Assembly (NCBI GenBank): GCA_016873435.1
Contig: VGXF01000006.1
Location: 1 to 64,000, forward strand
Source of the DNA: Nitrospira sp.
GTDB lineage: Bacteria > Nitrospirota > Nitrospiria > Nitrospirales > Nitrospiraceae
DNA: 64,000 bases
Direction of reading: 5' to 3'
The notes beneath the pieces are model-generated. The model saw only the letters and a list, made by a program, of their open reading frames with translations, was not told the DNA's origin and ran no database searches. The position numbers were made by a program, and so were the translations under genes. Every line of letters starts with the position of its first letter. Positions within the stretch are counted from its first letter, which is position 1. Shown piece by piece: positions 95 to 12,625 of the stretch.

Positions 95-1441
95 CTAAGC
101 ACGAGTCGTGGCAGAAGGGCGGATCACCCACGCCAGCATCGGCCAGAACAGATTCGCGCCGATGGCCGCGAGCCACAGAAACCATTCCAGCTTCCCGATC
201 ACCGCAAAGGCAAGCAGGAGAATGGAAAAGTCGCGGCTGGCCATGTTCTTGAGGATAAACTCCGCGCGAGCCGCCTGCTCCGGCGTGCGCCAGGCGTTCT
301 GCGCCTGAGCTGTCTTAGCCCTCGTCATTAGCCATAGGGACACAATATTGGCAAACACTGCCGCGCTGCTCAGCGCCAGTGGCAGCCACACCGTGCCGCC
401 GCTGCTCCATCCGCCATGCGCCCGGAACACGCCCAGTCCGATGGCGCCGAAGATCGCCATGTGCACCAGGTTGTCCGTCATGATGTCCAGTTGCTCGCCG
501 AACGGCGATTCGGCGAAAGTCAGACGGGCTACTTCGCCGTCGCAGCAATCGATAATGGCCGACAATTGAAAGAGCACTGCGCCGATAATCCCGGCCGCAT
601 AGGTCCCCACCGAAAAGACCGCCGCCGCCAGCATGCCGACCGCCGTGGCCACCAGCGTGATGGCATTGGGCGAGAGATGCAGCGCCAGAAACATTTGGCT
701 GAGCAGCGCCGAGATCTTGCGATTGAAATAGGTGTCGACAAATCCTTCGTACTGGCCACGGAGCGATGCAAATAATTTCTCCTTGGCCCTCGTCGCAGAG
801 TCCAGATCGTCCACGCGCAGACACCAGCAGCGCGACGTCACGGAAGTTTCGAAGGTCGTCACCAGGCCGTCCGCCTGAGCACGCCCCAGCAGGGCTTGCA
901 GCGGCGGTGACTCGCTCTTGATCGGTGTGGCGACACGCAGCAGCACCGGCTGCACCACCGCCAGATCTGTGGCGCGCCCATCGCAGACCACGGTTAGGGC
1001 TCCCGCAGCAGCTGCCGCCTCGCCCGCCAACACTTCGAGAAGCTGGCGCGACAACACCATCTGCGCGCCGACTACCACACAGGCCCCCTTCATTTCATGC
1101 GCGAGCGCGTCCCATGTCGTGTAATCGTTGGCGGGAAATTCACGGGCTGGCCACCATCGGACCGGCACAGTGATTCTCGGGTTACCCGCTAGCGCGCGCT
1201 TGAGCTGCAGCTCGTCATCGCCGGCCACGACCGTGACGCTCTGTACGCCGGCCCGCTGCAGCGTCAGGATGACGCGCACGAACAACGGCAGCCCCCCCAC
1301 CACTGTCAGCGGCCCCACCGTTTGCCCGACCGGCGAAGCCGAACCAAAGATGCCCGGCGCCGCGATCACGATGGCGCTGACCAGCGACGACCCCGCCGGC
1401 ACGGCCAGCTGCTCGTTGGGAATGGTCTGGCCCATCATCAC
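95..1441 (-). CDS. CDP-alcohol phosphatidyltransferase with degenerate nucleotidyltransferase-like N-terminal domain
   Basis: Membrane enzyme predicted to transfer a CMP-activated polar head group, here probably CMP-aminoethylphosphonate, to a lipid alcohol. Residues about 20-225 look like a nucleotidyltransferase-type domain, but the expected LAAGxGxR loop reads IAAPGIFGSASP, so this half is probably not catalytic. Residues about 235-445 are a CDP-alcohol phosphatidyltransferase: the whole signature is present (D298xxD301G302xxA305R306, eight residues, G315xxxD319xxxD323) among several hydrophobic segments. The two-domain layout recalls bifunctional inositol-phosphate cytidylyltransferase/phosphotransferases. 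It is the last gene of the leftward phosphonate operon, 50 bp after the nucleotidyltransferase gene. The family call is firm; the substrate is inferred from neighbours. Confidence 0.85.
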   Translation of the reverse strand: MMMGQTIPNEQLAVPAGSSLVSAIVIAAPGIFGSASPVGQTVGPLTVVGGLPLFVRVILTLQRAGVQSVTVVAGDDELQLKRALAGNPRITVPVRWWPAREFPANDYTTWDALAHEMKGACVVVGAQMVLSRQLLEVLAGEAAAAAGALTVVCDGRATDLAVVQPVLLRVATPIKSESPPLQALLGRAQADGLVTTFETSVTSRCWCLRVDDLDSATRAKEKLFASLRGQYEGFVDTYFNRKISALLSQMFLALHLSPNAITLVATAVGMLAAAVFSVGTYAAGIIGAVLFQLSAIIDCCDGEVARLTFAESPFGEQLDIMTDNLVHMAIFGAIGLGVFRAHGGWSSGGTVWLPLALSSAAVFANIVSLWLMTRAKTAQAQNAWRTPEQAARAEFILKNMASRDFSILLLAFAVIGKLEWFLWLAAIGANLFWPMLAWVIRPSATTRA

Positions 1442-1491: not shown

Positions 1492-2217
1492 CTAGCCTTC
1501 CATTTTTGGCAGAATCTCCCGCTCGGCTTTCGCGATGTCGTCCTCGAAGTCGATTTCGGTCCAGGGCAGCCCCCCGATCCGCTCGAAGCCGACCCTCACG
1601 TCTCGGAAAAACTCCAGCAGGGCGTCCTCATACTCCATGTCCAGCTTGCCGCGCTCCACATAGGCGCCCACGGATTTGATGAGCGTCCCCGTGTCCGTAC
1701 CACGGACCTTCAGAAACCCGACGCCCTCCCCAGCCAGATCGTACTGCTCCGGGATTTTCTTCGTCAGTGCGATCACCCGCCCACCCTGGGAGACCACCAT
1801 GCACTCTTCGCCGGTCTGCTTCACCGATTCATCCATCAAGAGCGCGTTCGCGTGAGACGACTTCACCAAGCGTTCGAGAATCTGCTGATGAAACAGCACA
1901 TCGGCATCCATGATCACAGCGTCGCCGTTCAATTCTTCGCGAGCGCGCCACAGCGAGGTGATACTGCCTCTCTGGTACTGATCGCTCTCGAGATAGCGCA
2001 CCGCGACGCCGTGCAGCCCCGACCCGACGGCTGCCTGGATCATTTTATTTTTATACCCGACGACGAGGACCGCCTGCCGAACGCCCACAGCCGCGAGCGA
2101 CCGGAGGTAGCGCACGATGAGCGGCTGCCCACCAAACTGGATCAAACACTTGGGGTGATGTTGCGTGACCGGCCAGAGCCGTTTTCCTACACCTGCCGCC
2201 AGGATGATCGCTTTCAT
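1492..2217 (-). CDS. Sugar-phosphate/phosphonate nucleotidyltransferase (PntC/LicC-like)
   Basis: A 241-residue single-domain NTP transferase. The N-terminus carries the nucleotide-binding loop LAAGVGKRLWPVT followed by PKCL, and a metal-binding Asp pair is visible in MDADVLF. The C-terminal WTEIDFEDD is typical of cytidylyltransferases acting on phosphocholine or phosphonates. In this operon the likely reaction is CTP + 2-aminoethylphosphonate -> CMP-aminoethylphosphonate + PPi, feeding the downstream CDP-alcohol transferase. The start overlaps the stop of the transaminase gene by 4 bp (ATGA), so translation is probably coupled. A sugar-phosphate substrate cannot be excluded from sequence alone. 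A second nucleotidyltransferase domain is fused to the mutase at 5778-7463. Confidence 0.85.
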   Translation of the reverse strand: MKAIILAAGVGKRLWPVTQHHPKCLIQFGGQPLIVRYLRSLAAVGVRQAVLVVGYKNKMIQAAVGSGLHGVAVRYLESDQYQRGSITSLWRAREELNGDAVIMDADVLFHQQILERLVKSSHANALLMDESVKQTGEECMVVSQGGRVIALTKKIPEQYDLAGEGVGFLKVRGTDTGTLIKSVGAYVERGKLDMEYEDALLEFFRDVRVGFERIGGLPWTEIDFEDDIAKAEREILPKMEG

Positions 2218-3308
2218 GTGCGGATGGTCGAGGTTTCCAATACTTTTTGAAATGCAGCGAGAAATCCGTCCACGTCCTGCACAGATAGGGCGCCCATATT
2301 GGCAATGCGAAACACTTTGCTCTCCAATTTTCCTTGCCCCGCATAGATCACATAGCCCTGTTCTTTCAGGCGATCGTGCAGCGTCTGATAGGCTAGGCCC
2401 TCAGGCAGATGGAAGCAGGTGATCGTGTTGGACTGATGATTAGCCGGCAGCAGCGGCTTGACGCCCAGCGCCTTCATGCGCTCACGGATTTTCGCAGAGA
2501 CTTTTTTATACCGCTGGATGCGAGTGGCCACGCCCTCCTCGAGCAATTCATCAAGCGCTTCGTTGAACGCATACGCCACCTGCACGGCCGGCGTGAAGGG
2601 GATGGCCGCCGCTTGATTGTCCTCATAATAATGAGGCAGGTGCAGGTACCAGGAACGCATGGGATAGCCCTTCATCCGTTCCATGAATCCCTTGCGAATC
2701 AGCACGAAGGACATGCCGGGAAAACCCTGGATACATTTGCCTGCCGTCCCGGCAACCATGTAGAGCTTCGAGCCTGCGATGTCGAGCGCCTCGCCCGCCA
2801 GTCCGCTAACCGAGTCCACGAGAAAGGCGCGGTTCTGGCTATCCACTACCTCGGCAATCTCTTTTATCGGATTGATCAACCCCGTCGTTGTTTCGTGGTG
2901 CACCATCGCCACTACGTGCACTTCCTGGTGCTGCCGCAGCGCCAGCCGTAATTGTTCCGGATCGGGCCGTTTCGTCCAGTCCATCTTCAGCTCAGCCACG
3001 CCCAGGCGGTGCACACCGATCATGCTGGAAATTCGTTCACCATAGACACCGTTGTTGATTACAAGCATCCGCTTGCCGTGCGGGAGGGAGGAGAGCGCCG
3101 CGGCTTCGACGGCGGCGGTGCCCGAGCTGGTCAGCAGCACGGCCGTGTACTCAGATTCCGCTCCTGGTACGAACGCTTTCAGGAGTTTGTGCCGGATGCC
3201 CTGCAGCAGTTCCGCGCATTCCGGCTCACGATGGCAGATATCGGGCTTGTGGAGCGCCTTGCGGACACGCTCAGTGACATTGACCGGTCCGGGATTGAGA
3301 AGAATCAT
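2214..3308 (-). CDS. phnW: 2-aminoethylphosphonate--pyruvate transaminase (class V aminotransferase)
   Basis: PLP enzyme interconverting phosphonoacetaldehyde and 2-aminoethylphosphonate with alanine/pyruvate; next to decarboxylase genes it probably runs in the biosynthetic direction. The 364-residue protein starts with the family-typical LLNPGPVNVTERV, has the phosphate-binding SSGTAAVEAA loop, D165 in the LVDSVSGL cofactor region, and the Schiff-base lysine at about K191 in AGTAGKCIQGFPG, very close to known PhnW active-site segments. It lies 92 bp after the decarboxylase beta gene and overlaps the nucleotidyltransferase by 4 bp. A related alanine-glyoxylate type aminotransferase is the alternative, but context favours PhnW. 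Confidence 0.88.
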   Translation of the reverse strand: MILLNPGPVNVTERVRKALHKPDICHREPECAELLQGIRHKLLKAFVPGAESEYTAVLLTSSGTAAVEAAALSSLPHGKRMLVINNGVYGERISSMIGVHRLGVAELKMDWTKRPDPEQLRLALRQHQEVHVVAMVHHETTTGLINPIKEIAEVVDSQNRAFLVDSVSGLAGEALDIAGSKLYMVAGTAGKCIQGFPGMSFVLIRKGFMERMKGYPMRSWYLHLPHYYEDNQAAAIPFTPAVQVAYAFNEALDELLEEGVATRIQRYKKVSAKIRERMKALGVKPLLPANHQSNTITCFHLPEGLAYQTLHDRLKEQGYVIYAGQGKLESKVFRIANMGALSVQDVDGFLAAFQKVLETSTIRT

Positions 3309-3400: not shown

Positions 3401-3979
3401 CTATTCAATCGCTTTCTTAAACCGCTGCGTCATATCGTGCGGCTCGATCAGTACGCGGTCGGCATCCTCGGTCTGCTCGGTCACCTTGATGAGCAGCATG
3501 CTGGGGCCGTCCTTCTTAAGCATCTCCTTGAACTCGTAGACGATGTCCTCACGCTCAATGACGCGCTCGACGTGAACGTAGCCGGCCGCCTTTGCAATGT
3601 GCTCCAGCCGCACGACGTTCGAAATTGTCGGCTGATTGCCCGTGGTGCCGTAGACTTCGTTATCCAGCACGACGTGCACAAAATTTTTCGGCCTCAGAGC
3701 GGCGACGGTCGCCAGCGTCCCCATGCCCATGAGCACGTTGCCGTCCCCGTCGAACACGACGACCTTCTTATTCGGCTTGTGCAGCGCCACGCCAAGGCCG
3801 ATGGCTGCCGCTACGCCCATGGAGCCGATCATGTAGAAATGCGTCGCCCGGTCCGCAATCTTATGCGCCTCACGCGACGGAAAGCCGTTGCAGATGATGA
3901 CCGGTTCGTCCTTCAACTGCTCCAGCAGCGCGGCGATCGCCCGCGCGCGGCTCTGCATGGTGCCTTCTTCGGGTCTCAT
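3401..3979 (-). CDS. Phosphonopyruvate decarboxylase, beta (TPP-binding) subunit
   Basis: C-terminal half of a thiamine-diphosphate decarboxylase, encoded separately. The 192-residue protein carries the TPP/Mg motif GDG (residues 78-80) ending in LDNEVYG with N107, as in phosphonopyruvate and sulfopyruvate decarboxylases. With the alpha subunit encoded 63 bp upstream it should convert phosphonopyruvate to phosphonoacetaldehyde and CO2, the irreversible step that pulls the unfavourable PEP mutase equilibrium forward. Sulfopyruvate decarboxylase (ComE-like) has the same split architecture; the transaminase and mutase neighbours decide for the phosphonate reading. Start ATG gives MRPEEG; no signal peptide, cytoplasmic. 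Confidence 0.87.
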   Translation of the reverse strand: MRPEEGTMQSRARAIAALLEQLKDEPVIICNGFPSREAHKIADRATHFYMIGSMGVAAAIGLGVALHKPNKKVVVFDGDGNVLMGMGTLATVAALRPKNFVHVVLDNEVYGTTGNQPTISNVVRLEHIAKAAGYVHVERVIEREDIVYEFKEMLKKDGPSMLLIKVTEQTEDADRVLIEPHDMTQRFKKAIE

Positions 3980-4042: not shown

Positions 4043-4540
4043 TCATGGATGGAGCGACTTGACGATACCTTTTTTTAGCAGCAGTGCCACTGGCACGCGC
4101 TCCTTCATGAAAGTCTGCGCGGTCCACCGGAGGTCGTCCACCAGCGTTTGCTCGGAAATGGTGCGATGCGGAATCTTCACCGAGTCCAGCACTTGCGTCA
4201 TGTTCTCGCCCATGACCAGATGTTCAGGCGCGTCCTTGCCCTGAAACCCGCGCCACGAAATCAACAGTAGGCAGGGCTGTTTGTAGATGACATTGAGCGA
4301 GATGATCGCGTTCATGGACGTGCCCAGGCCCGAGTTCTGCATGAGCACCGCCGGCACCTTGCCCGCCATATAGGCGCCGGCCGCTATGGCCACCGCCTCG
4401 TCCTCACGCACGGCAGGGGTATACAGACGCCGCTCCATGAGGGTTTCAATGATGCCGCCCAATATGGAGTCCGGCACACCGGTGAAGAAATCAAAGCCTA
4501 CGTCCTGTAGGGCCTGCACGAATACGTCGCTATCGATCAT
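4043..4540 (-). CDS. Phosphonopyruvate decarboxylase, alpha (PYR) subunit
   Basis: N-terminal half of the same thiamine-diphosphate enzyme, 165 residues. The segment FFTGVPDSILGGI and the cofactor-activating glutamate (E46 in VREDEAVAIAAG) match phosphonopyruvate/sulfopyruvate decarboxylase alpha chains, as does LMQNSGLGTSMNAI. It is the first gene of the leftward phosphonate operon; its beta partner follows after 63 bp. A TATAAT-like -10 box lies just upstream (see promoter entry). Splitting of this enzyme into two genes is common in archaeal ComD/ComE but many bacterial phosphonopyruvate decarboxylases are single chains, so the arrangement is worth noting. Confidence 0.87.
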   Translation of the reverse strand: MIDSDVFVQALQDVGFDFFTGVPDSILGGIIETLMERRLYTPAVREDEAVAIAAGAYMAGKVPAVLMQNSGLGTSMNAIISLNVIYKQPCLLLISWRGFQGKDAPEHLVMGENMTQVLDSVKIPHRTISEQTLVDDLRWTAQTFMKERVPVALLLKKGIVKSLHP

Positions 4541-4667: not shown

Positions 4668-5192
4668 ATGCTGACTTTACGCCATCGCTTTCCTCTTCTC
4701 ACCGCCGTGTGCATGTGGGCTGTGATCAGCGTGCCTGTCACCCACGCCGTCCCCATGGTCAGCGACCCAAAAGGCTTCAGCGGTATCACCTGGGGCACCT
4801 CGTTGAACGATCGGCCGGAACTCGCACTGGTCACTACCGCCAACCGCATCAAGGAATATGACCGCAAGAGCAGTCCGCTGCAGTTTGGCGACGCCGCCGT
4901 CGACACGATGCGCTTCTCCGCAGTAGACGGAAAATTTGCCCGCGTGACCATTCGCTACAAAGGCAAGGACACGCTGGCGAAAGTCCTGGTCCATCTTCAA
5001 CTGCTCTACGGCCCGCTGGACCGCACCCCCGGCCAGATGATGCGGAGCGCCAATCAGCAGTACAACTGGCGCGGCACGGACACCGAGGTCAACATGACCT
5101 TTGATGGCATGGGTGAGCGCGGATTCCTGTTCATCGAAAGCACCGTGCTGGCCCCCCGGTTCAATGATTCGCTCACGGATAGCGCCTACTAA
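4668..5192 (+). CDS. Secreted protein of unknown function, tandem paralog 1
   Basis: A 174-residue protein with a signal peptide (about residues 1-28, cleavage near THA/VP). I do not recognise the family. The mature part has recurring GITWGT, FARVTIRYKG, YGPLDRTPGQ and YNWRG blocks and no cysteines, suggesting a small beta-rich periplasmic domain. The neighbouring gene at 5203-5727 has the same length and the same blocks in the same order, so they arose by tandem duplication. They stand between the divergent decarboxylase operon and the mutase gene, which suggests a link with phosphonate or envelope metabolism, but nothing in the sequence proves it. Confidence 0.8.
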   Translation: MLTLRHRFPLLTAVCMWAVISVPVTHAVPMVSDPKGFSGITWGTSLNDRPELALVTTANRIKEYDRKSSPLQFGDAAVDTMRFSAVDGKFARVTIRYKGKDTLAKVLVHLQLLYGPLDRTPGQMMRSANQQYNWRGTDTEVNMTFDGMGERGFLFIESTVLAPRFNDSLTDSAY

Positions 5193-5202
5193 TGAGGCGG
5201 CC

Positions 5203-5727
5203 ATGCGCCTGCCCTCGGCTCGTCTCATTATTTTAGGGCTGACTGTCGGCGCAGTACTTCCGTTTGCCGGCTCCGCTCACGCCGTCCCCATGATCAACGA
5301 CCCCCAGGGATTCGGCGGCATTACCTGGGGAACTACCTTCAAGACGCTGGACGACTATGCGCTGGTGGAATCCACCACGCGGATTAAAGGCTACGAATTG
5401 AAAAGCGGCCCTCCACCGCTGGGCGAAGCCAAAATCGAGATGATGCGCCTGCTGACGATCGATGGGAAATTTGCCCGTGTGATAGTCCGCTACCAGGGCG
5501 ACCAGACCCACAAAAAGGTGCTGGCCTATCTAGAAACCACGTACGGCCCCCTCGACCGCACACCGGGTCAGCTTTCGGTGGGCACGCTCACTCTGCACAA
5601 CTGGCGCGGCCCGGAAACTGAGATTAATCTTTCCTTCGACGCCAAACAGGAACGCGGCGTGATTTTCTTCGAAAGCCGGATGCTGCTGCCGACCTTCCAG
5701 GATGCCATCAGTGATACGGTGAATTGA
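5203..5727 (+). CDS. Secreted protein of unknown function, tandem paralog 2
   Basis: A 174-residue paralog of the preceding gene, 10 bp downstream of its stop. Start ATG at 5203 is chosen because it begins MRLPSAR and gives a normal signal peptide cleaved near AHA/VP; an upstream in-frame extension would overlap the first gene. Shared blocks are DPQGFGGITWGT, KFARVIVRYQG, YGPLDRTPGQ and NWRGPETEI. Function is unknown. It is followed 50 bp later by the mutase fusion gene in the same direction, so the three may be one transcription unit. Confidence 0.8.
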   Translation: MRLPSARLIILGLTVGAVLPFAGSAHAVPMINDPQGFGGITWGTTFKTLDDYALVESTTRIKGYELKSGPPPLGEAKIEMMRLLTIDGKFARVIVRYQGDQTHKKVLAYLETTYGPLDRTPGQLSVGTLTLHNWRGPETEINLSFDAKQERGVIFFESRMLLPTFQDAISDTVN

Positions 5728-5777: not shown

Positions 5778-7463
5778 ATGCGCCTCATGCATCAAGCCAC
5801 CAAACTGCGTGAACTTCTGAAGCGCCCCGGCGCAATCAAAATTGTCGGTGCCCACGACGCGCTCAGCGCCAAGCTGATCGAGCGTGCGGGCTTCGACGGC
5901 GTCTGGGCCAGCGGATTCGCCATCTCCGCCTCGCTCAAGTGCATTCCGGATGCGAGCTTCATTGATTCTAGCGAACAACTCGCCGTCGAACGCCGCATCG
6001 CTGAAACGATCAACATTCCGATTGTCGCTGACTGCGATACTGGCTACGGTAACGCGCTGAACGTCATGCGCACGGTGAGCGACCGTGAGCGCGTGGGTGT
6101 GGCCGCCATCTGCATTGAAGACAACGTCTATCCCAAACGCTGCAGCTTCTACGCCGGCGTCCGCCGCGAGTTGATTCCCATCAAAGAGCATTGCGGCAAG
6201 ATCAAGGCAGCCAAGGCCGCGCAGACCGTGCCAGACTTCATGGTGATCGCTCGCACGGAGGCGTTGATTGCGGGCTGGGGCAAGGACGAAGCTATCAAGC
6301 GCGCAGAGGCCTACGCAGAAGCTGGTGCGGACGCGATCCTGATTCATTCCAAATCGAAAACTTTCGACGAGCTTAAGTCAGTTTACAGGGCGCTCTCGTG
6401 TCGGGTCCCGATCGTCGTCGTACCGACCATCTTCGACCAGACCACAGCGAAGGAAATGGAAGACGCAGGCGTCAAGATTATCATCTATGCCAACCAGCCG
6501 GTGCGCGCGGCCATCCGGAACATGCGCGATACGCTGGAGCTGATCAAGAAGGACACGCGGCCCGGCGTGGCCAACGACCGCATCGTCACCCTGCCGGAAG
6601 TCTACGACATTGTCGGTGTCCCGCAGATGGAGGAGGATGAGAAGAACTTTCTGCCTGTGGGCGGTGAGAAGATCACGACGATCATCGCGGCGGCAGGGTT
6701 TGAAAAACAGCTCCTGCCCCTGATCGAGGACAAACCCAAGTGCCTGCTGGACATCAAGGGCAAGACCATTCTCGAACGGCAGGTGGCGGCGCTCAACGAT
6801 TGCAACATCAAGGACATTGCCCTCGTCCGCGGCTACAAAAAAAACGCGATCAACCTTTCCAACATCAAGTACTACGACAACGACCGCTATGAGGAAACCG
6901 GCGAGCTCTACTCAATCTTTTGCGCTGAACCGGCCATGAAAGGTCGCTGTCTCTTCCTTTATGGCGACATCATCTTTGACGCGGCTGTACTGGAAAAACT
7001 CTTGAAGTGCCCAGCGGATATGGCCATCGTGGTCGACTTGGCCTGGTCGGATCGACCGAAGACCGGCACCCCGCCGCCGCATCTCAAGCCGGACCTCGTG
7101 ACATTGGAGCATGCTCCGTCAGCAGGCGGCACGGGCCGCTTCGTCATGCCGGACAACCAGCCGCGCGTGCGCAAGATCGGCCAGCACATCGCCCACGGCC
7201 AAGCGCATGGCGAGTTCATCGGCATGGCAATGCTCTCCGAAAAAGCCACGGAAGCCTTCAAGCAGGCCTATCACGACGCAGGCCAAAAAACCGGCAAGGG
7301 CTTCCACGAAGCGCCTACGCTCCAGAAAGCCTCCCTCACCGACCTCCTCCAGGAACTGATCGACCGCGGCCAGACCGTCGAGGCCGTGCCCATCTACAAG
7401 GGGTGGATGGAAGTGGATTCGTTCGAGGAATATCAGCAGGCCTGGGCCAGGCTTCGTCAGTAA
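5778..7463 (+). CDS. PEP mutase/isocitrate lyase family domain fused to nucleotidyltransferase
   Basis: A 561-residue two-domain protein. Residues 1-~285 are an isocitrate lyase/PEP mutase barrel; residues ~298-561 are an NTP transferase with IIAAAGFEKQLLPL and DKPKCLLDI. By context it should form the C-P bond (PEP to phosphonopyruvate) and activate the product with CTP. Expected active-site residues of PEP mutase are present at the familiar positions: D58, D85, D87 (DTGYGN), E114, K120, R159 and H190. However the diagnostic EDK(x5)NS reads EDN(x5)CS: K116 is Asn and the key N122 is Cys, as in C-C lyases of the superfamily. The nucleotidyltransferase loop also lacks the usual GxGxR arginine. 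An ATG 9 bp downstream is an equally possible start. Confidence 0.82.
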   Translation: MRLMHQATKLRELLKRPGAIKIVGAHDALSAKLIERAGFDGVWASGFAISASLKCIPDASFIDSSEQLAVERRIAETINIPIVADCDTGYGNALNVMRTVSDRERVGVAAICIEDNVYPKRCSFYAGVRRELIPIKEHCGKIKAAKAAQTVPDFMVIARTEALIAGWGKDEAIKRAEAYAEAGADAILIHSKSKTFDELKSVYRALSCRVPIVVVPTIFDQTTAKEMEDAGVKIIIYANQPVRAAIRNMRDTLELIKKDTRPGVANDRIVTLPEVYDIVGVPQMEEDEKNFLPVGGEKITTIIAAAGFEKQLLPLIEDKPKCLLDIKGKTILERQVAALNDCNIKDIALVRGYKKNAINLSNIKYYDNDRYEETGELYSIFCAEPAMKGRCLFLYGDIIFDAAVLEKLLKCPADMAIVVDLAWSDRPKTGTPPPHLKPDLVTLEHAPSAGGTGRFVMPDNQPRVRKIGQHIAHGQAHGEFIGMAMLSEKATEAFKQAYHDAGQKTGKGFHEAPTLQKASLTDLLQELIDRGQTVEAVPIYKGWMEVDSFEEYQQAWARLRQ

Positions 7464-7559: not shown

Positions 7560-8195
7560 ATGCCAAGCATGAAGAAGAACGGCAAGCGGAAGGCGTCCGG
7601 ACAGGAGCGGCAGGCAGGTATCATCGCGGCGGCGGCGGCGCTCTTCGCGCGGCGCGGCTTCACCGGCGCGACGACCAAGGCGATTGCCAGAACCGCCGGC
7701 TGCAGCGAGGCGCTGGTTTTCAAATACTTCCCGACCAAGCGCGCGCTCTACGCGGCCATTTTGGCCGAGAAGGTCCCGCTTGGAGAGATGATGGTCGCCG
7801 TGGAGGATGCGGCGAAAAAGAAGGACGACCGGCTTGTCTTTACCACCCTTGCCCGCCACCGCATCCGGCGCAATGCCGACCCAACCCTCCTGCGCCTGCT
7901 GCTTTTCAGCGCGCTGGAAGGGCACGAACTCTCAAAGATGTTCTTCAAGAATCAACACCGGGTCTTCTACGATTACCTCGCGGCCTACATTGAACAGCGC
8001 ACCCGCGATGGCGCATTCCGCCGTGTAGATCCCCTGCTCGGCGCCCGCTCCTTCATGGGCCTGATTGCGCACCATCGGCTGCTGCATGAACTGTTCGGCG
8101 TGGCTCTGCACCGGTCCCAGGAAGAGTGCATTGAGAGCTACGTCTCGCTGTTCCTTAACGGCATTCAAACGAACGGCGGAAAGACCAGCGCATGA
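7560..8195 (+). CDS. TetR-family transcriptional regulator
   Basis: A 211-residue cytoplasmic repressor. The N-terminal HTH is clear: a basic stretch, then RQAGIIAAAAALFARRGF, GATTKAIARTAGCS and the TetR-typical VFKYFPTKRALYAAI. The remaining part is an all-helical ligand/dimer domain. It probably represses itself and the adhering RND pump genes through the palindrome at 7531-7556, which almost touches its start codon. No Shine-Dalgarno sequence is visible because the operator occupies that position. The stop overlaps the start of the membrane-fusion gene by 4 bp. The inducing ligand is unknown. Confidence 0.9.
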   Translation: MPSMKKNGKRKASGQERQAGIIAAAAALFARRGFTGATTKAIARTAGCSEALVFKYFPTKRALYAAILAEKVPLGEMMVAVEDAAKKKDDRLVFTTLARHRIRRNADPTLLRLLLFSALEGHELSKMFFKNQHRVFYDYLAAYIEQRTRDGAFRRVDPLLGARSFMGLIAHHRLLHELFGVALHRSQEECIESYVSLFLNGIQTNGGKTSA

Positions 8196-9385
8196 ACCGG
8201 CTGCGGCTCCACCCCCTCGTCACCATCTTTGTCGTAATCCTGCTCGTGCTGGCCGGTCTGATCACGTTCAAGCTAACCAGCAGCGGGGCCAAGAGTGACC
8301 AGCGTAAGGGCCGCGTGATCACGGTCAGCACGGCCACGCCGGTGCGGCAGGATTTGGACGTCCGCCTCGAGTACACGGCTGATATCGGCCCCTATCAAAT
8401 GGTCAACCTCTTTTCGCGCGTGGATGGCTACATCGCTAAGATGTACGTGGACAAGGGTGACGTCGTGAAGGCCGATCAATTGCTAGTGGAGATTGACCAC
8501 ACGGATTATCTCCATGCCGTCAATCGGGCCAAAGCCAATCTGGCGTCGGCCCAGGCCGAGGTCCTGAAACAGGACGCCAATCTCCGTAACACCAAACTGA
8601 CGCTCGACCGTATGAAGGCGCTGATCAAGGATCAATTTGTCTCGCAGCAGGATTTGGATACAGCGCAGGTGAATTTCGACGGAGTGTCGGCGCAGCTCGA
8701 GGCGGCACGCGCACAGGTGAAACAGATGGAGGTGGCACTGCAACAGGCCGAGACCAATCTGGCCTATTCCTACATCCGCGCGCCCTTCAACGGCTATGTC
8801 GCCGAGCGCAATCTCGATCCTGGCGCCTACGTGACTGGCTCAACGGCTAGCACCTCGACCATGTCGCGCGGCATCCTGAGTCTGCACGATATCGAAACCG
8901 TTCGCACACTAATCGAGGTAGTCGAAAAAGATATCCCCCTCGTGAGGATTGGCCAGCCAGCGGAGATTCGCGCCGAAGCTTATCCGGACCGTACCTTCAC
9001 CGGCACGGTGACGCGAACCGTGCAGGCCGTCAATCGCAACACGCGCACGATGACCGTGGAGGTGGATCTGGCGAATAAGGACCGCCTACTCAAGGGCGGC
9101 ATGTTCGCTCGCGTAGCGCTCAAGGTGGGCGTGCACCGGAATGCGATTCAGATTCCAATTGATGCCGTCACTCGACTCGAAGACAACCAGTACGTCTATG
9201 TGGTGCGCGAGGGCAAGGCACGCCAAGTCGCCGTCGACCTAGGCGCCCGCAGCGAGCACAGGGTCGAGATCACGAGGGGGCTGACCGGAGACGAGCAGGT
9301 GATCGTCTCCGGTAAGGACCTCGTCAGCGACGGCACCGTCGTCGAAGTCCACCCACTGGAAACCGACGTGAAGCGGCCCTTATAA
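8192..9385 (+). CDS. RND efflux periplasmic adaptor (membrane fusion protein, HlyD/AcrA family)
   Basis: A 397-residue adaptor bridging the inner-membrane pump and an outer-membrane channel. It starts with one membrane anchor (about residues 7-28), followed by a beta-barrel/lipoyl half (YTADIGPYQMVNLFSRVDGYI), a helical hairpin (about 105-190), the second lipoyl half (YSYIRAPFNGYVAERNLDPGAYV) and C-terminal barrel segments. It overlaps tetR by 4 bp and precedes the RND transporter gene by 69 bp. No outer-membrane factor gene follows, so the pump probably shares a TolC-type protein encoded elsewhere. Confidence 0.92.
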   Translation: MNRLRLHPLVTIFVVILLVLAGLITFKLTSSGAKSDQRKGRVITVSTATPVRQDLDVRLEYTADIGPYQMVNLFSRVDGYIAKMYVDKGDVVKADQLLVEIDHTDYLHAVNRAKANLASAQAEVLKQDANLRNTKLTLDRMKALIKDQFVSQQDLDTAQVNFDGVSAQLEAARAQVKQMEVALQQAETNLAYSYIRAPFNGYVAERNLDPGAYVTGSTASTSTMSRGILSLHDIETVRTLIEVVEKDIPLVRIGQPAEIRAEAYPDRTFTGTVTRTVQAVNRNTRTMTVEVDLANKDRLLKGGMFARVALKVGVHRNAIQIPIDAVTRLEDNQYVYVVREGKARQVAVDLGARSEHRVEITRGLTGDEQVIVSGKDLVSDGTVVEVHPLETDVKRPL

Positions 9386-9417
9386 AGGGCATCTCTTAAC
9401 CATGACGACTCTTCGAC

Positions 9418-9444
9418 GCTTCACACTTCACGTTTCACGCTTCC
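9418..9444. repeat. TTCAC-rich intergenic microrepeat
   Basis: Between the adaptor and pump genes there are four near-tandem TTCAC/TTCC units spaced by 4-7 bp. Similar TTCA-rich, AT-leaning spacers recur between unrelated genes in this window (for example near 21350, 23865 and 56690). Function unknown. Confidence 0.5.
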
Positions 9445-9454
9445 CGGCACCGCC

Positions 9455-12400
9455 ATGTGGCTGACGATCCTCGCGCTCCGCAACAGCGTCGGCATTTTGA
9501 TGCTCTCCCTTGCCATGGTGGTCCTGGGAGCGACGTCGCTCCAGCGCCTGCCGGTGGACCTCTTCCCGAACATTTCCGTGCCAGTGGTCTTCGTCGGTGT
9601 CATCTACGAAGGGGCGCCGCCGGTGGATATCGAACAAAGTGTCATCTATCCGATTGAGAAAGCCGTCAGTTCGGCCTCGAACGTCGAGCACGTCGAGTCT
9701 TTTTCAAAACTTGGGCTGGGCGCGGTACAGGTCTGGTTCAACTGGGGAGCCGACATCAACGTGGGCCAGATGGAGGTGATGCAGCGCATCACCCAGATTC
9801 TCAATCAATTGCCTCCAGGCGTCTTGCAGCCCTTCGTCGTCAAGTTCGACGTCTCCAACATCCCCGTGGCCTACGTCACGGTCGGCAGCGACAACCTGGA
9901 CGAACGCGCACTCTACGACCTGGCCTTCAATACCATCGCGCCGCAGATTGAGCAGATCAACAACGTGGCCGCGGCCACGGTCGAGGGTGGCAAGATCCGC
10001 CAAATCAACATCAGTCTTGACCCGGCACTCTTGCACGCGCGCGGCCTATCCATTCTGGACGTTGTCAAATCCGTCAAGGCCGCCAATCTGATTCTGCCGT
10101 CTGGCGACATCAAAGCGGGCAATCTCGATTACAACGTCTTCACGAACAATCAGTTCAAGACCGTTGAGCCGATCCACGACGTCGTCGTAAAAGTGGACTC
10201 ACGAGGCAACCCGGTACGGGTGCGCGATCTGGGAATCGTCACTGATTCCTCCGACATCCAGACCAACATTGTACGCATCGACAGTCAGCGCGGGGTCTAC
10301 CTCCGCGTAAACAAGCAACCGATCGCCAACACGGTGGAGGTGGTCGACGCACTCCAGCGCACCCTGCCCAACATGATCGGGATCCCCCCCGGCGTGAAAC
10401 TAGGCATTTCGTTCGACCAGTCGCTCTACATCCGCATGGCGATCAAGAACCTAACCGAGCAGGCCTTGCATGGCTCGCTGCTGGCGGCGGCGGTCATTCT
10501 GCTGTTCCTCCGCAATTTGACCAGCACGGCCATCATCTCTATCGCCATCCCTCTCTCGATCCTGGTGACGTTCATTGTCATGTTCTTCAGCGGTATGACG
10601 CTCAACATCTTCACACTTGGCGGGCTGGCGCTCGGCGTCGGCCGTCTGGTGGACGACTCGATCGTCGAGCTGGAAAACATCCAGCGACATCTCAACAAGG
10701 ATCCCTCTCGCTGGCACGCCATCGTGAACGCAGCCCGCGAGGTGGCCATGCCAATTTTCGTATCCACCGTGACAACTGTCGTGGTGTTTCTCCCGATGTT
10801 TTTCGTCATCGGTATTGCACGGCTGCTGCTCATCCCACTTACGCTCACGATCGCTATCTCACTGTTCACATCGTTCTTCATCTCGCGGACGGTCACGCCC
10901 TGCCTCTGCTACAAGTTCCTCAAGCCGGAGGAGGAAGCCGCGCGCAATCTGCCCGACTGGTGGCGCCGCTTTATCGAGCGCAGCCGGCGGTATTACGAAC
11001 GGCTGGATGACGGCTACCAGCAGGCGCTGGACTGGACGCTATCGCACCGCAAGACGGTCATCGGCTCGATTCTGACGCTATTTCTAGGCACCTTGGCCCT
11101 GCTGCCGTTCATTGGTTCTGAGTTCATCCCCGTCACCGATGAAAGCCAATTCCGCATCGTCGTGCGCGCGCCGGTGGGTCAGCGGGTGGAAAAAACGGAG
11201 CACCAGGTAGCGGAGATCGAAAAGGTCCTCCGGGAAAACATCCGGCCGGAGGAATTGGACACGATCGTCTCCAGCACCGGTGTGCTCCAGCAAGGCCGTT
11301 CGTCGCTGTTCAACCCTAACACCGGTCCGCACACCTCGCTTGTGCAAGCCTACCTGGTCTCGCCGGACAAGCGGACGAGAAGTCAGGTCCAGATCATGAA
11401 CGACGTCCGACCGAAGATCACCAAGCTCTTTCCCGGCGTCGCCATGTTCTTTGACCCTGGAGGGATCGTCAAGCGCGTGACCAGCTTCGGCTCGCAGAAG
11501 GCGGTGGATGTCGAAATCTACGGCTATGAATTTGAGAAAGCCCGGACCGCCATCAAACAGGTGGAGGCGGTGATGCACGAGGTTAAGGGCCTGGCTGACA
11601 TTGAAGTCAGCCGGGAAGAAAACTATCCGGAGCTCAACGTGCAGGTGGACCGCGAGAAGGCTGCACTGCTGGGCATTAGCGAGACCGACGTCGCCAACGC
11701 CGTCCTCTACTCAATGGTCGGCAACGGCCGAACTGATCCGATCATCTACACCGATCCACAGACTGGCAACGAGTATTACATCAGTGCCTGGCTAGCCGAG
11801 CAATATCGAAAGGAGCTGAGCGACCTCGAAAACAACGTAATCCTGACGGCGCGAACCGGCGAGCCGGTACTGCTCAAGAACTTGGCCTTGATCAAGTTCA
11901 ACGCCGGACCAGTGAAAATCGAGCGCAAATACTTCCAGCGTGTCATCCATATCACCGCCAACCCGGTCGGGCGCGACCTCGGCAGCATCGGCAATGAGCT
12001 CGACGAGCGGTTCGCGCAATTACAATTGCCGCCGGGCTTCGGTATCCGGCTGGCCGGCCAGATCCAGCAGCAGCGCGAAACGAGGGAGGGCCTCCTCTTC
12101 GCAACCCTTCTTGCCATATTGCTCGTCTACATGGTCATGGCCGCGCAGTTCAAATCGCTGGTCGACCCCTTCATCATCATGTTCTCAATTCCGCTTGGAC
12201 TCGCTGGCGTTTGGCTGATTCTCTTCCTAACCAGTACGACAATCTCGACGACTTCGATGATGGGCGTAATCATGATGCTGGGCATCGTCGTCTCGAACGG
12301 CGTGTTGCTGGTGGATTACACCAACGTGCTGCGGCGGCGTGGCCTGGCCCTGCGCGAAGCCATCGTGCTCGCGTCGCGGACGCGGTTGCGGCCGATCCTC

Positions 12401-12625
12401 ATGACCTCGCTGGCAACCGTGGTCGGTCTGGCTCCGATGGCGCTGGGCTGGGGCGTGGGCGGGGAAACCAACGCGCCGCTGGCGCGCTCGGTGGTCGGAG
12501 GGCTCAGCGTCTCGACGATTTTGACGCTGTTTCTGATCCCGACGCTCTACATGATTCTCGAAGAACGTTTCCCGCGCAAATCCGATCCGATGCTGGGCGA
12601 TGGACCGCCCACACTGCAGAGTTGA
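9455..12625 (+). CDS. RND-family multidrug efflux transporter (HAE1/AcrB type)
   Basis: A 1056-residue proton-driven inner-membrane pump of normal AcrB length. It shows the two-fold repeat of six membrane segments and a large periplasmic loop each. The proton-relay aspartate pair in TM4 is present in GVGRLVDDSIVELENI, which places it with drug rather than heavy-metal (HME) pumps; the first loop begins RLPVDLFPNISVPVV, a common HAE1 opening. The C-terminal half carries TRLRPILMTSLATVVGLAPMAL. It is the last gene of the tetR-adaptor-pump operon. Substrates cannot be read from the sequence. Confidence 0.95.
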   Translation: MWLTILALRNSVGILMLSLAMVVLGATSLQRLPVDLFPNISVPVVFVGVIYEGAPPVDIEQSVIYPIEKAVSSASNVEHVESFSKLGLGAVQVWFNWGADINVGQMEVMQRITQILNQLPPGVLQPFVVKFDVSNIPVAYVTVGSDNLDERALYDLAFNTIAPQIEQINNVAAATVEGGKIRQINISLDPALLHARGLSILDVVKSVKAANLILPSGDIKAGNLDYNVFTNNQFKTVEPIHDVVVKVDSRGNPVRVRDLGIVTDSSDIQTNIVRIDSQRGVYLRVNKQPIANTVEVVDALQRTLPNMIGIPPGVKLGISFDQSLYIRMAIKNLTEQALHGSLLAAAVILLFLRNLTSTAIISIAIPLSILVTFIVMFFSGMTLNIFTLGGLALGVGRLVDDSIVELENIQRHLNKDPSRWHAIVNAAREVAMPIFVSTVTTVVVFLPMFFVIGIARLLLIPLTLTIAISLFTSFFISRTVTPCLCYKFLKPEEEAARNLPDWWRRFIERSRRYYERLDDGYQQALDWTLSHRKTVIGSILTLFLGTLALLPFIGSEFIPVTDESQFRIVVRAPVGQRVEKTEHQVAEIEKVLRENIRPEELDTIVSSTGVLQQGRSSLFNPNTGPHTSLVQAYLVSPDKRTRSQVQIMNDVRPKITKLFPGVAMFFDPGGIVKRVTSFGSQKAVDVEIYGYEFEKARTAIKQVEAVMHEVKGLADIEVSREENYPELNVQVDREKAALLGISETDVANAVLYSMVGNGRTDPIIYTDPQTGNEYYISAWLAEQYRKELSDLENNVILTARTGEPVLLKNLALIKFNAGPVKIERKYFQRVIHITANPVGRDLGSIGNELDERFAQLQLPPGFGIRLAGQIQQQRETREGLLFATLLAILLVYMVMAAQFKSLVDPFIIMFSIPLGLAGVWLILFLTSTTISTTSMMGVIMMLGIVVSNGVLLVDYTNVLRRRGLALREAIVLASRTRLRPILMTSLATVVGLAPMALGWGVGGETNAPLARSVVGGLSVSTILTLFLIPTLYMILEERFPRKSDPMLGDGPPTLQS

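Follow-up and report, generated by a model that had tools for sequence, protein, structure and literature searches.

A predicted PEP mutase of Nitrospira and other bacteria with cysteine at the phosphoryl-contacting asparagine position

The barrel domain of a two-domain protein of Nitrospira sp. is most probably a genuine PEP mutase with a new variant of the active site, in which cysteine replaces Asn122; it would feed a predicted route to 2-aminoethylphosphonate (AEP) and probably on to a phosphonolipid. The gene lies in a stretch of 64,000 nucleotides (contig VGXF01000006.1, positions 1 to 64,000), which as a whole is called the window here. The function is read from genomes; catalytic activity, order of the pathway and lipid product are predictions. 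The original prediction had offered either a PEP mutase whose chemistry is altered or a different phosphonate-forming or -splitting step. Residues, fold, tree and syntenic replacement all agree with a PEP mutase of changed active site; the second option is not supported, as Cys-type enzymes and those with the canonical EDKx5NS motif interchange over the same locus and the enzyme groups in the tree neither with the C-C lyases nor with the Thr-type hydrolases (types are named after the residue at position 122).

The open reading frame (5778..7463, plus strand; 561 aa, start codon ATG) comprises a PEP-mutase-like TIM-barrel domain (residues 1-291; 5778..6650, plus strand; Pfam PF13714, 196 bits) and a fused MobA-like NTP-transferase domain (residues 299-561; 6672..7460, plus strand; PF12804, 42 bits). 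At the equivalent of the EDKx5NS motif (residues 114-123; 6117..6146, plus strand), translation and alignment to the Mytilus PEP mutase (PDB 1M1B) give EDNVYPKRCS versus EDKLFPKTNS, that is, Asn116 (codon 6123-6125) and Cys122 (codon TGC, 6141-6143); with this sequence the protein fails the motif test for PEP mutase (TIGR02320). The other catalytic ligands of PEP mutase (W44, S46, D58, D85, D87, E114, K120, S123, R159 and H190) are all present in the alignment to 1M1B, as is E161; the residues as originally read (EDN x5 CS with N116 and C122, other catalytic residues kept) were exact. The fused domain, on which the original prediction was silent, has AAGFEKQ at the nucleotide-binding GxGxR signature and fails the PntC-type test; the signature is missing from the Cys type as well as from the related Asn-type fusions examined and, judged from its sequence, this domain may lack catalytic activity or work in another way.

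The best match of the protein among PDB sequences is the PEP mutase 5unc (E 7.9e-82), followed by the phosphonopyruvate hydrolase 2dua (2e-65) and the Mytilus PEP mutase (5e-61); lyases appear from 9e-39 onwards. PEP mutase (TIGR02320) also ranks top among the NCBIfam models, with 268.2 bits, under the equivalog cut-off of 319.55; two fusions which do carry EDKx5NS (L088 and L095) score 318 bits, likewise slightly under this cut-off. Phosphonopyruvate hydrolase (TIGR02321) follows with 248.4 bits (cut-off 374.4), but its residue test is failed with Cys instead of Thr at position 122. The prpB model gives 200 bits, and of the residues that mark C-C lyases (Cys122-Gly123, Asp161, Glu190) only Cys122 is found, the others being Ser123, Glu161 and His190. 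An AlphaFold model (pLDDT 89) has its best fold matches in the PEP mutases 5unc and 1pym (target TM 0.93-0.97); it aligns to 5unc with a target TM of 0.96 and 48% identity, to 2dua with 41% structural identity, and to lyases with TM 0.84-0.91. Because the gate loop (block 121-130) is modelled with a confidence of only about 64, no distances involving Cys122 are claimed.

The link to phosphonate genes, part of the original prediction, is borne out on the opposite strand of the window. There, phosphonopyruvate-decarboxylase-like (PPD) subunits are encoded, alpha at 4043..4540 (minus strand; TIGR03297, 126 bits over model positions 1-156; TIGR03845, 117 bits) and beta at 3401..3979 (minus strand; TIGR03297, 176 bits over positions 170-358; TIGR03846, 192 bits with a cut-off of 221.5), together with a 2-aminoethylphosphonate aminotransferase-like protein (PhnW/AepZ; 2214..3308, minus strand; TIGR03301, 351 bits, cut-off 360.8), a stand-alone NTP transferase with intact LAAGVGKRL, which is a candidate AEP nucleotidyltransferase (1492..2217, minus strand; PF00483, PF12804), and a CDP-alcohol phosphatidyltransferase-like protein with the motif DGx2ARx8Gx3Dx3D, a candidate phosphonolipid synthase (95..1441, minus strand; PF01066, 43.7 bits). 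A TetR regulator, a membrane-fusion protein and an RND transporter next to pepM (7560..12625, plus strand) mark the syntenic slot in relatives. From PPD alpha to pepM, two adjoining paralogous genes (4668-5192 and 5128-5727, together 4668..5727, plus strand) have no Pfam match; their N termini are signal-peptide-like by eye, and the pair is kept in Nitrospira even without pepM. An Rfam search of the window yielded nothing. PPD and NTP transferase, mostly with PhnW too, flank Cys-type genes in loci of Acidobacteriota, Planctomycetota and Binatia; many EDKx5NS fusions are also flanked by PPD, NTP transferase and, mostly, PhnW, and split PPDs beside EDKx5NS mutases score like PPD alpha and beta of the window. 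In some Cys-type loci (e.g. L078, L107) all of these partners are missing from the stretch examined.

Relatives were collected in scans of one-per-species genomes, and residues were counted over 87 distinct Cys-type and 49 distinct Asn-type barrels. Although pairwise identity among the former goes down to 40%, C122, S123, W44, D58, D85, D87, E114, K120, R130, R159, E161 and H190 are present in all of them (87/87), and R121, Y125 and T160 (86/87 each), N116 (85/87) and H138 (81/87) in nearly all, while K116, N122, Q130 and F138 are invariant in the Asn type (49/49). Given this conservation within both sets, the two types differ by a set of co-varying residues in the gate loop. A sequencing error, chance or a mutation of a single genome at position 122 was considered and rejected, C122 and S123 being fixed in a conserved clade (87/87). 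The Cys type is found in Nitrospirota and in records labelled Nitrospinota, Acidobacteriota, Planctomycetota, Binatia and Deltaproteobacteria; the cultured Nitrospira moscoviensis has a homolog (L066:8001-9677) that is 78% identical to the window protein. When 294 Planctomycetota genomes were drawn separately, they contained 21 Cys-type loci (already-known ones included), and 16 of these have a PPD gene within the short piece of sequence retrieved. The Cys type is the sole mutase-type enzyme found in 13 genomes with such loci besides that of the window, further matches therein being lyases where typable, and the window's genome has no second mutase-type PF13714 gene. In the phage and plasmid records examined, all relatives were distant ones of the Asn, Thr or lyase type.

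Several individual loci stand apart. L202, an Asn-type fusion whose branch is very long, reads EDKQYPKRNS, which combines K116 and N122 with the Arg121 of the Cys type. A deep-branching stand-alone Cys-type PepM, also on a long branch (EDNAFPKRCS; L206:318-2340), overlaps a gene resembling HMGL/homocitrate synthase; homologs from this family (FrbC type) condense phosphonopyruvate with acetyl-CoA, which is why L206 may represent a second phosphonate context, a route of the phosphonomethylmalate type. Another stand-alone Cys-type PepM (EDSRHPKRCS; L203:1447-3437) adjoins an Ldh_2-family dehydrogenase, perhaps a reductase of phosphonopyruvate or of an analog; both contexts are leads only. One chimeric frame (L127:9818-10762) is of the Cys type to about residue 110 and then continues as a different member of the superfamily; it is probably a misassembly, since the remaining Cys-type gene begins another contig of the same genome. 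A contig of a metagenome-assembled genome titled Klebsiella pneumoniae (L083) has a locus resembling those of Binatia and 'Deltaproteobacteria' records, and its title is probably wrong.

The original prediction called for the enzyme to be placed in a tree, and in three trees, built with the motif columns left out, it groups with PEP mutases and hydrolases outside the C-C lyases, which are split from all others at 100/100; a plain C-C lyase without ties to phosphonates, an outcome that would have refuted that prediction, is not what was found. Asn- and Thr-type enzymes form a group at 100/99, every Cys-type row falls outside that clade, and the Thr-type hydrolases are a clade of their own nested within the Asn-type enzymes. 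Rooted with the lyases, the Cys-type rows form a grade at the base of the EDKx5NS/TS clade; a sister position is also compatible, strict monophyly of a single Cys-type clade being neither shown nor rejected (AU p 0.435), and the position of the root is not certain because the lyase branch is long. Given this basal position relative to the EDKx5NS enzymes, Cys122 may have been inherited from lyases; Cys122 being common to the lyase outgroup, the simplest history has one change from Cys to Asn along the branch leading to the EDK group, and from the sequences the Thr of the hydrolases would in that simplest history be derived within the group.

The distribution over Nitrospirales, the order of the window, was followed in 144 listed genomes. 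There, 40 have the Cys type, 94 a fused Asn type of about 40% identity (EDKx5NS was read directly in 14/14 genomes, the remaining assignments being made by score and frame length), ten have neither, and none has both, where 26 would be expected (Fisher p 1.6e-26, a value that ignores kinship; genera g2 and g8 each include both types). Twelve Asn-type genomes have a split PPD locus away from their PepM gene; in nine of these, from the window's own family, the gene order (RND-MFP-TetR-hyp-hyp-PPDa-PPDb-PhnW-NTPt-CDPOH) matches that of the window except for an empty pepM slot, and in the remaining three the block from PPD to CDPOH lacks the TetR/RND flank. Neither tblastn nor blastn found a remnant of the Cys-type gene in the empty slot. 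The replacing enzyme is a canonical PEP mutase (387 bits versus a cut-off of 319.55), which thus occurs in genomes that lack the Cys type but keep the genes downstream of it.

PPD beta is near-universal in the order, being present in 118 of the 119 searched genomes with PepM and in nine of the ten without. Five near-complete genomes keep PPD-PhnW and have no PepM, their loci lacking both NTP transferase and CDP-alcohol transferase (G060 with locus L234, G143 with L237, G218 with L235, G293 with L236 and G305 with L239); in the two examined for it, L234 and L239, a CstA-type transporter lies downstream. PPD-PhnW alone is, therefore, no proof of phosphonopyruvate as the substrate, and the argument that this cassette proves the function of PepM was dropped in favor of mutual exclusion, syntenic replacement and the co-occurrence with CDP-alcohol transferase; conversion of sulfopyruvate to taurine is one guess for the PepM-free loci. 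The CDP-alcohol transferase, on the other hand, tracks PepM: it is found in 69/70 genomes with either PepM type versus 3/10 without PepM (p 3e-7), the latter three being drafts (90-95% complete) whose genus-mates have PepM.

It is very improbable that the enzyme is a C-C lyase of the methylisocitrate-lyase or dimethylmalate-lyase type which came by drift to lie among phosphonate genes and uses Cys122 as the usual acid/base. The enzyme of the window has Cys122, Arg121 and Thr160 in common with lyases and reaches 200 bits with the prpB model, but the PEP-mutase model outscores the latter with 268 bits, W44, S123, E161 and H190 are of the mutase type in 87/87 barrels and never so in lyases (F/Y/H, G, D and E, respectively), and the split in the tree has full support; further, a partner of the methylcitrate cycle is missing from the window's genome (no MmgE/PrpD match in G000), and several Cys-type genomes have true lyases as separate genes. 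Phosphonopyruvate hydrolase, the degradative relative with Thr122, comes near the mutase in score (248 bits) and shares the 41% structural identity to 2dua; yet the separate clade of Thr types among Asn-type enzymes, the biosynthetic surroundings (nucleotidyltransferase, CDP-alcohol transferase) and the replacement by a canonical mutase above the NCBIfam cut-off make a hydrolase highly unlikely.

The PepM-free loci bear on another reading, in which a sulfonate or other analog is made, PPD being a sulfopyruvate decarboxylase that leads with the PhnW-like enzyme to taurine, and the Cys type acting on a different substrate. The higher score of PPD beta with the model for sulfopyruvate decarboxylase beta (192 bits) than with that for PPD (176 bits) is in line with this, as is the retention of PPD and PhnW in the five genomes; summed over both subunits, however, the PPD score is 302 of the 312.5 required, both sulfopyruvate models being further from their cut-offs, split PPDs beside EDKx5NS mutases score alike, and the same locus is served in other genomes by a canonical PEP mutase instead of the Cys type. 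On chemical grounds, a phosphonate, not a sulfonate, would suit the steps of NTP-transferase activation and CDP-alcohol transfer, and we regard the sulfonate reading as unlikely. Degeneration does occur in the window protein, as GxGxR is lost in its fused domain, and the barrel might thus be a non-catalytic PEP mutase kept for the fused domain or as a structural partner; with metal and substrate ligands all invariant over 87 distinct barrels and no other mutase-type enzyme in the genomes, this is extremely improbable.

As a genuine PEP mutase, the barrel would convert PEP to phosphonopyruvate in a Mg-dependent reaction, with Cys122 in place of the phosphoryl-contacting Asn and set in a co-adapted gate loop (N116, R121, C122, Y125, R130, H138). 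PPD alpha/beta would decarboxylate phosphonopyruvate, the PhnW-like transaminase step would yield AEP, the stand-alone NTP transferase would activate it, and the CDP-alcohol transferase would attach the activated product, probably to a lipid. In PEP mutase R159, H190 and, hypothetically, N122 and S123 contact phosphonyl oxygens of the metaphosphate-like intermediate (PMC7916636); since Asn122 is reportedly near the phosphonyl group (PMC7916636), its exchange for Cys could lower or alter activity. Presumably, Cys122 assumes the role of Asn122 and steers the metaphosphate-like phosphoryl group, or else it transiently accepts this group. In the more conservative of both readings a hydrogen bond of the thiol would do the job of Asn, R121 and R130 offsetting the lost K116; in the other a nucleophilic Cys122 thiolate would give phosphocysteine. 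That these are early-branching PEP mutases which retained the lyase Cys and work by double displacement via phosphocysteine at Cys122, in contrast to Asn-type enzymes with their dissociative metaphosphate route, appears rather doubtful.

Compared with known systems, the Cys type is most like PEP mutase itself (PepM/Ppm; Mytilus 1M1B/1PYM, Streptomyces platensis 5UNC; TIGR02320) in fold, metal and substrate ligands, W44, S123, E161 and H190, but differs from it in having N116, R121, C122, Y125, R130 and H138 instead of K116, V/T121, N122, I/L125, Q130 and F138; the system in the window also stays under the NCBIfam cut-off and has split PPD subunits and a CDP-alcohol transferase. The likeness is greatest to the PepM-PF12804 fusions of clusters for AEP on the cell surface (Pnt; Rice et al. 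2019, PMC6697681), which likewise have a fused MobA-like NTP transferase and a neighborhood of PPD, transaminase and NTP transferase. Phosphonopyruvate hydrolase (Variovorax 2DUA/2HJP; TIGR02321) has the barrel, most ligands and a substitution at position 122 in common with the Cys type, whereas it differs in Thr122, K116, Q130, its separate clade and its degradative role. C-C lyases (PrpB 1MUM, 1XG3; petal death protein 1ZLP) share the PKRC segment with Cys122, and Thr160, while they have F/Y/H44, Q116, G123, D161 and E190 and are set apart in the tree.

Searches of the open-access literature found no description of a Cys-type PEP mutase. Surveys of phosphonate biosynthesis take EDKx5NS as the definition of a valid PepM (PMC6697681, PMC8931226, PMC12723261); in that of Rice et al. 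(PMC6697681) the motif filter removed 22 fused non-motif proteins, and the Cys-type clade is a likely source of some of these. Although it fails the criteria of motif and model cut-off, descent and context make the Cys type very probably a PEP mutase. Many Nitrospira and members of several further phyla carry an enzyme of this clade, and, as the filter drops it, nitrite oxidisers and Planctomycetota would be under-counted as phosphonate producers. With a lyase-type Cys among otherwise mutase-type residues, and branching near the split of lyases and mutases, these enzymes make two questions testable with few mutants, namely how C-P bond formation originated from C-C lyase chemistry and which role position 122 has in the migration of the phosphoryl group.
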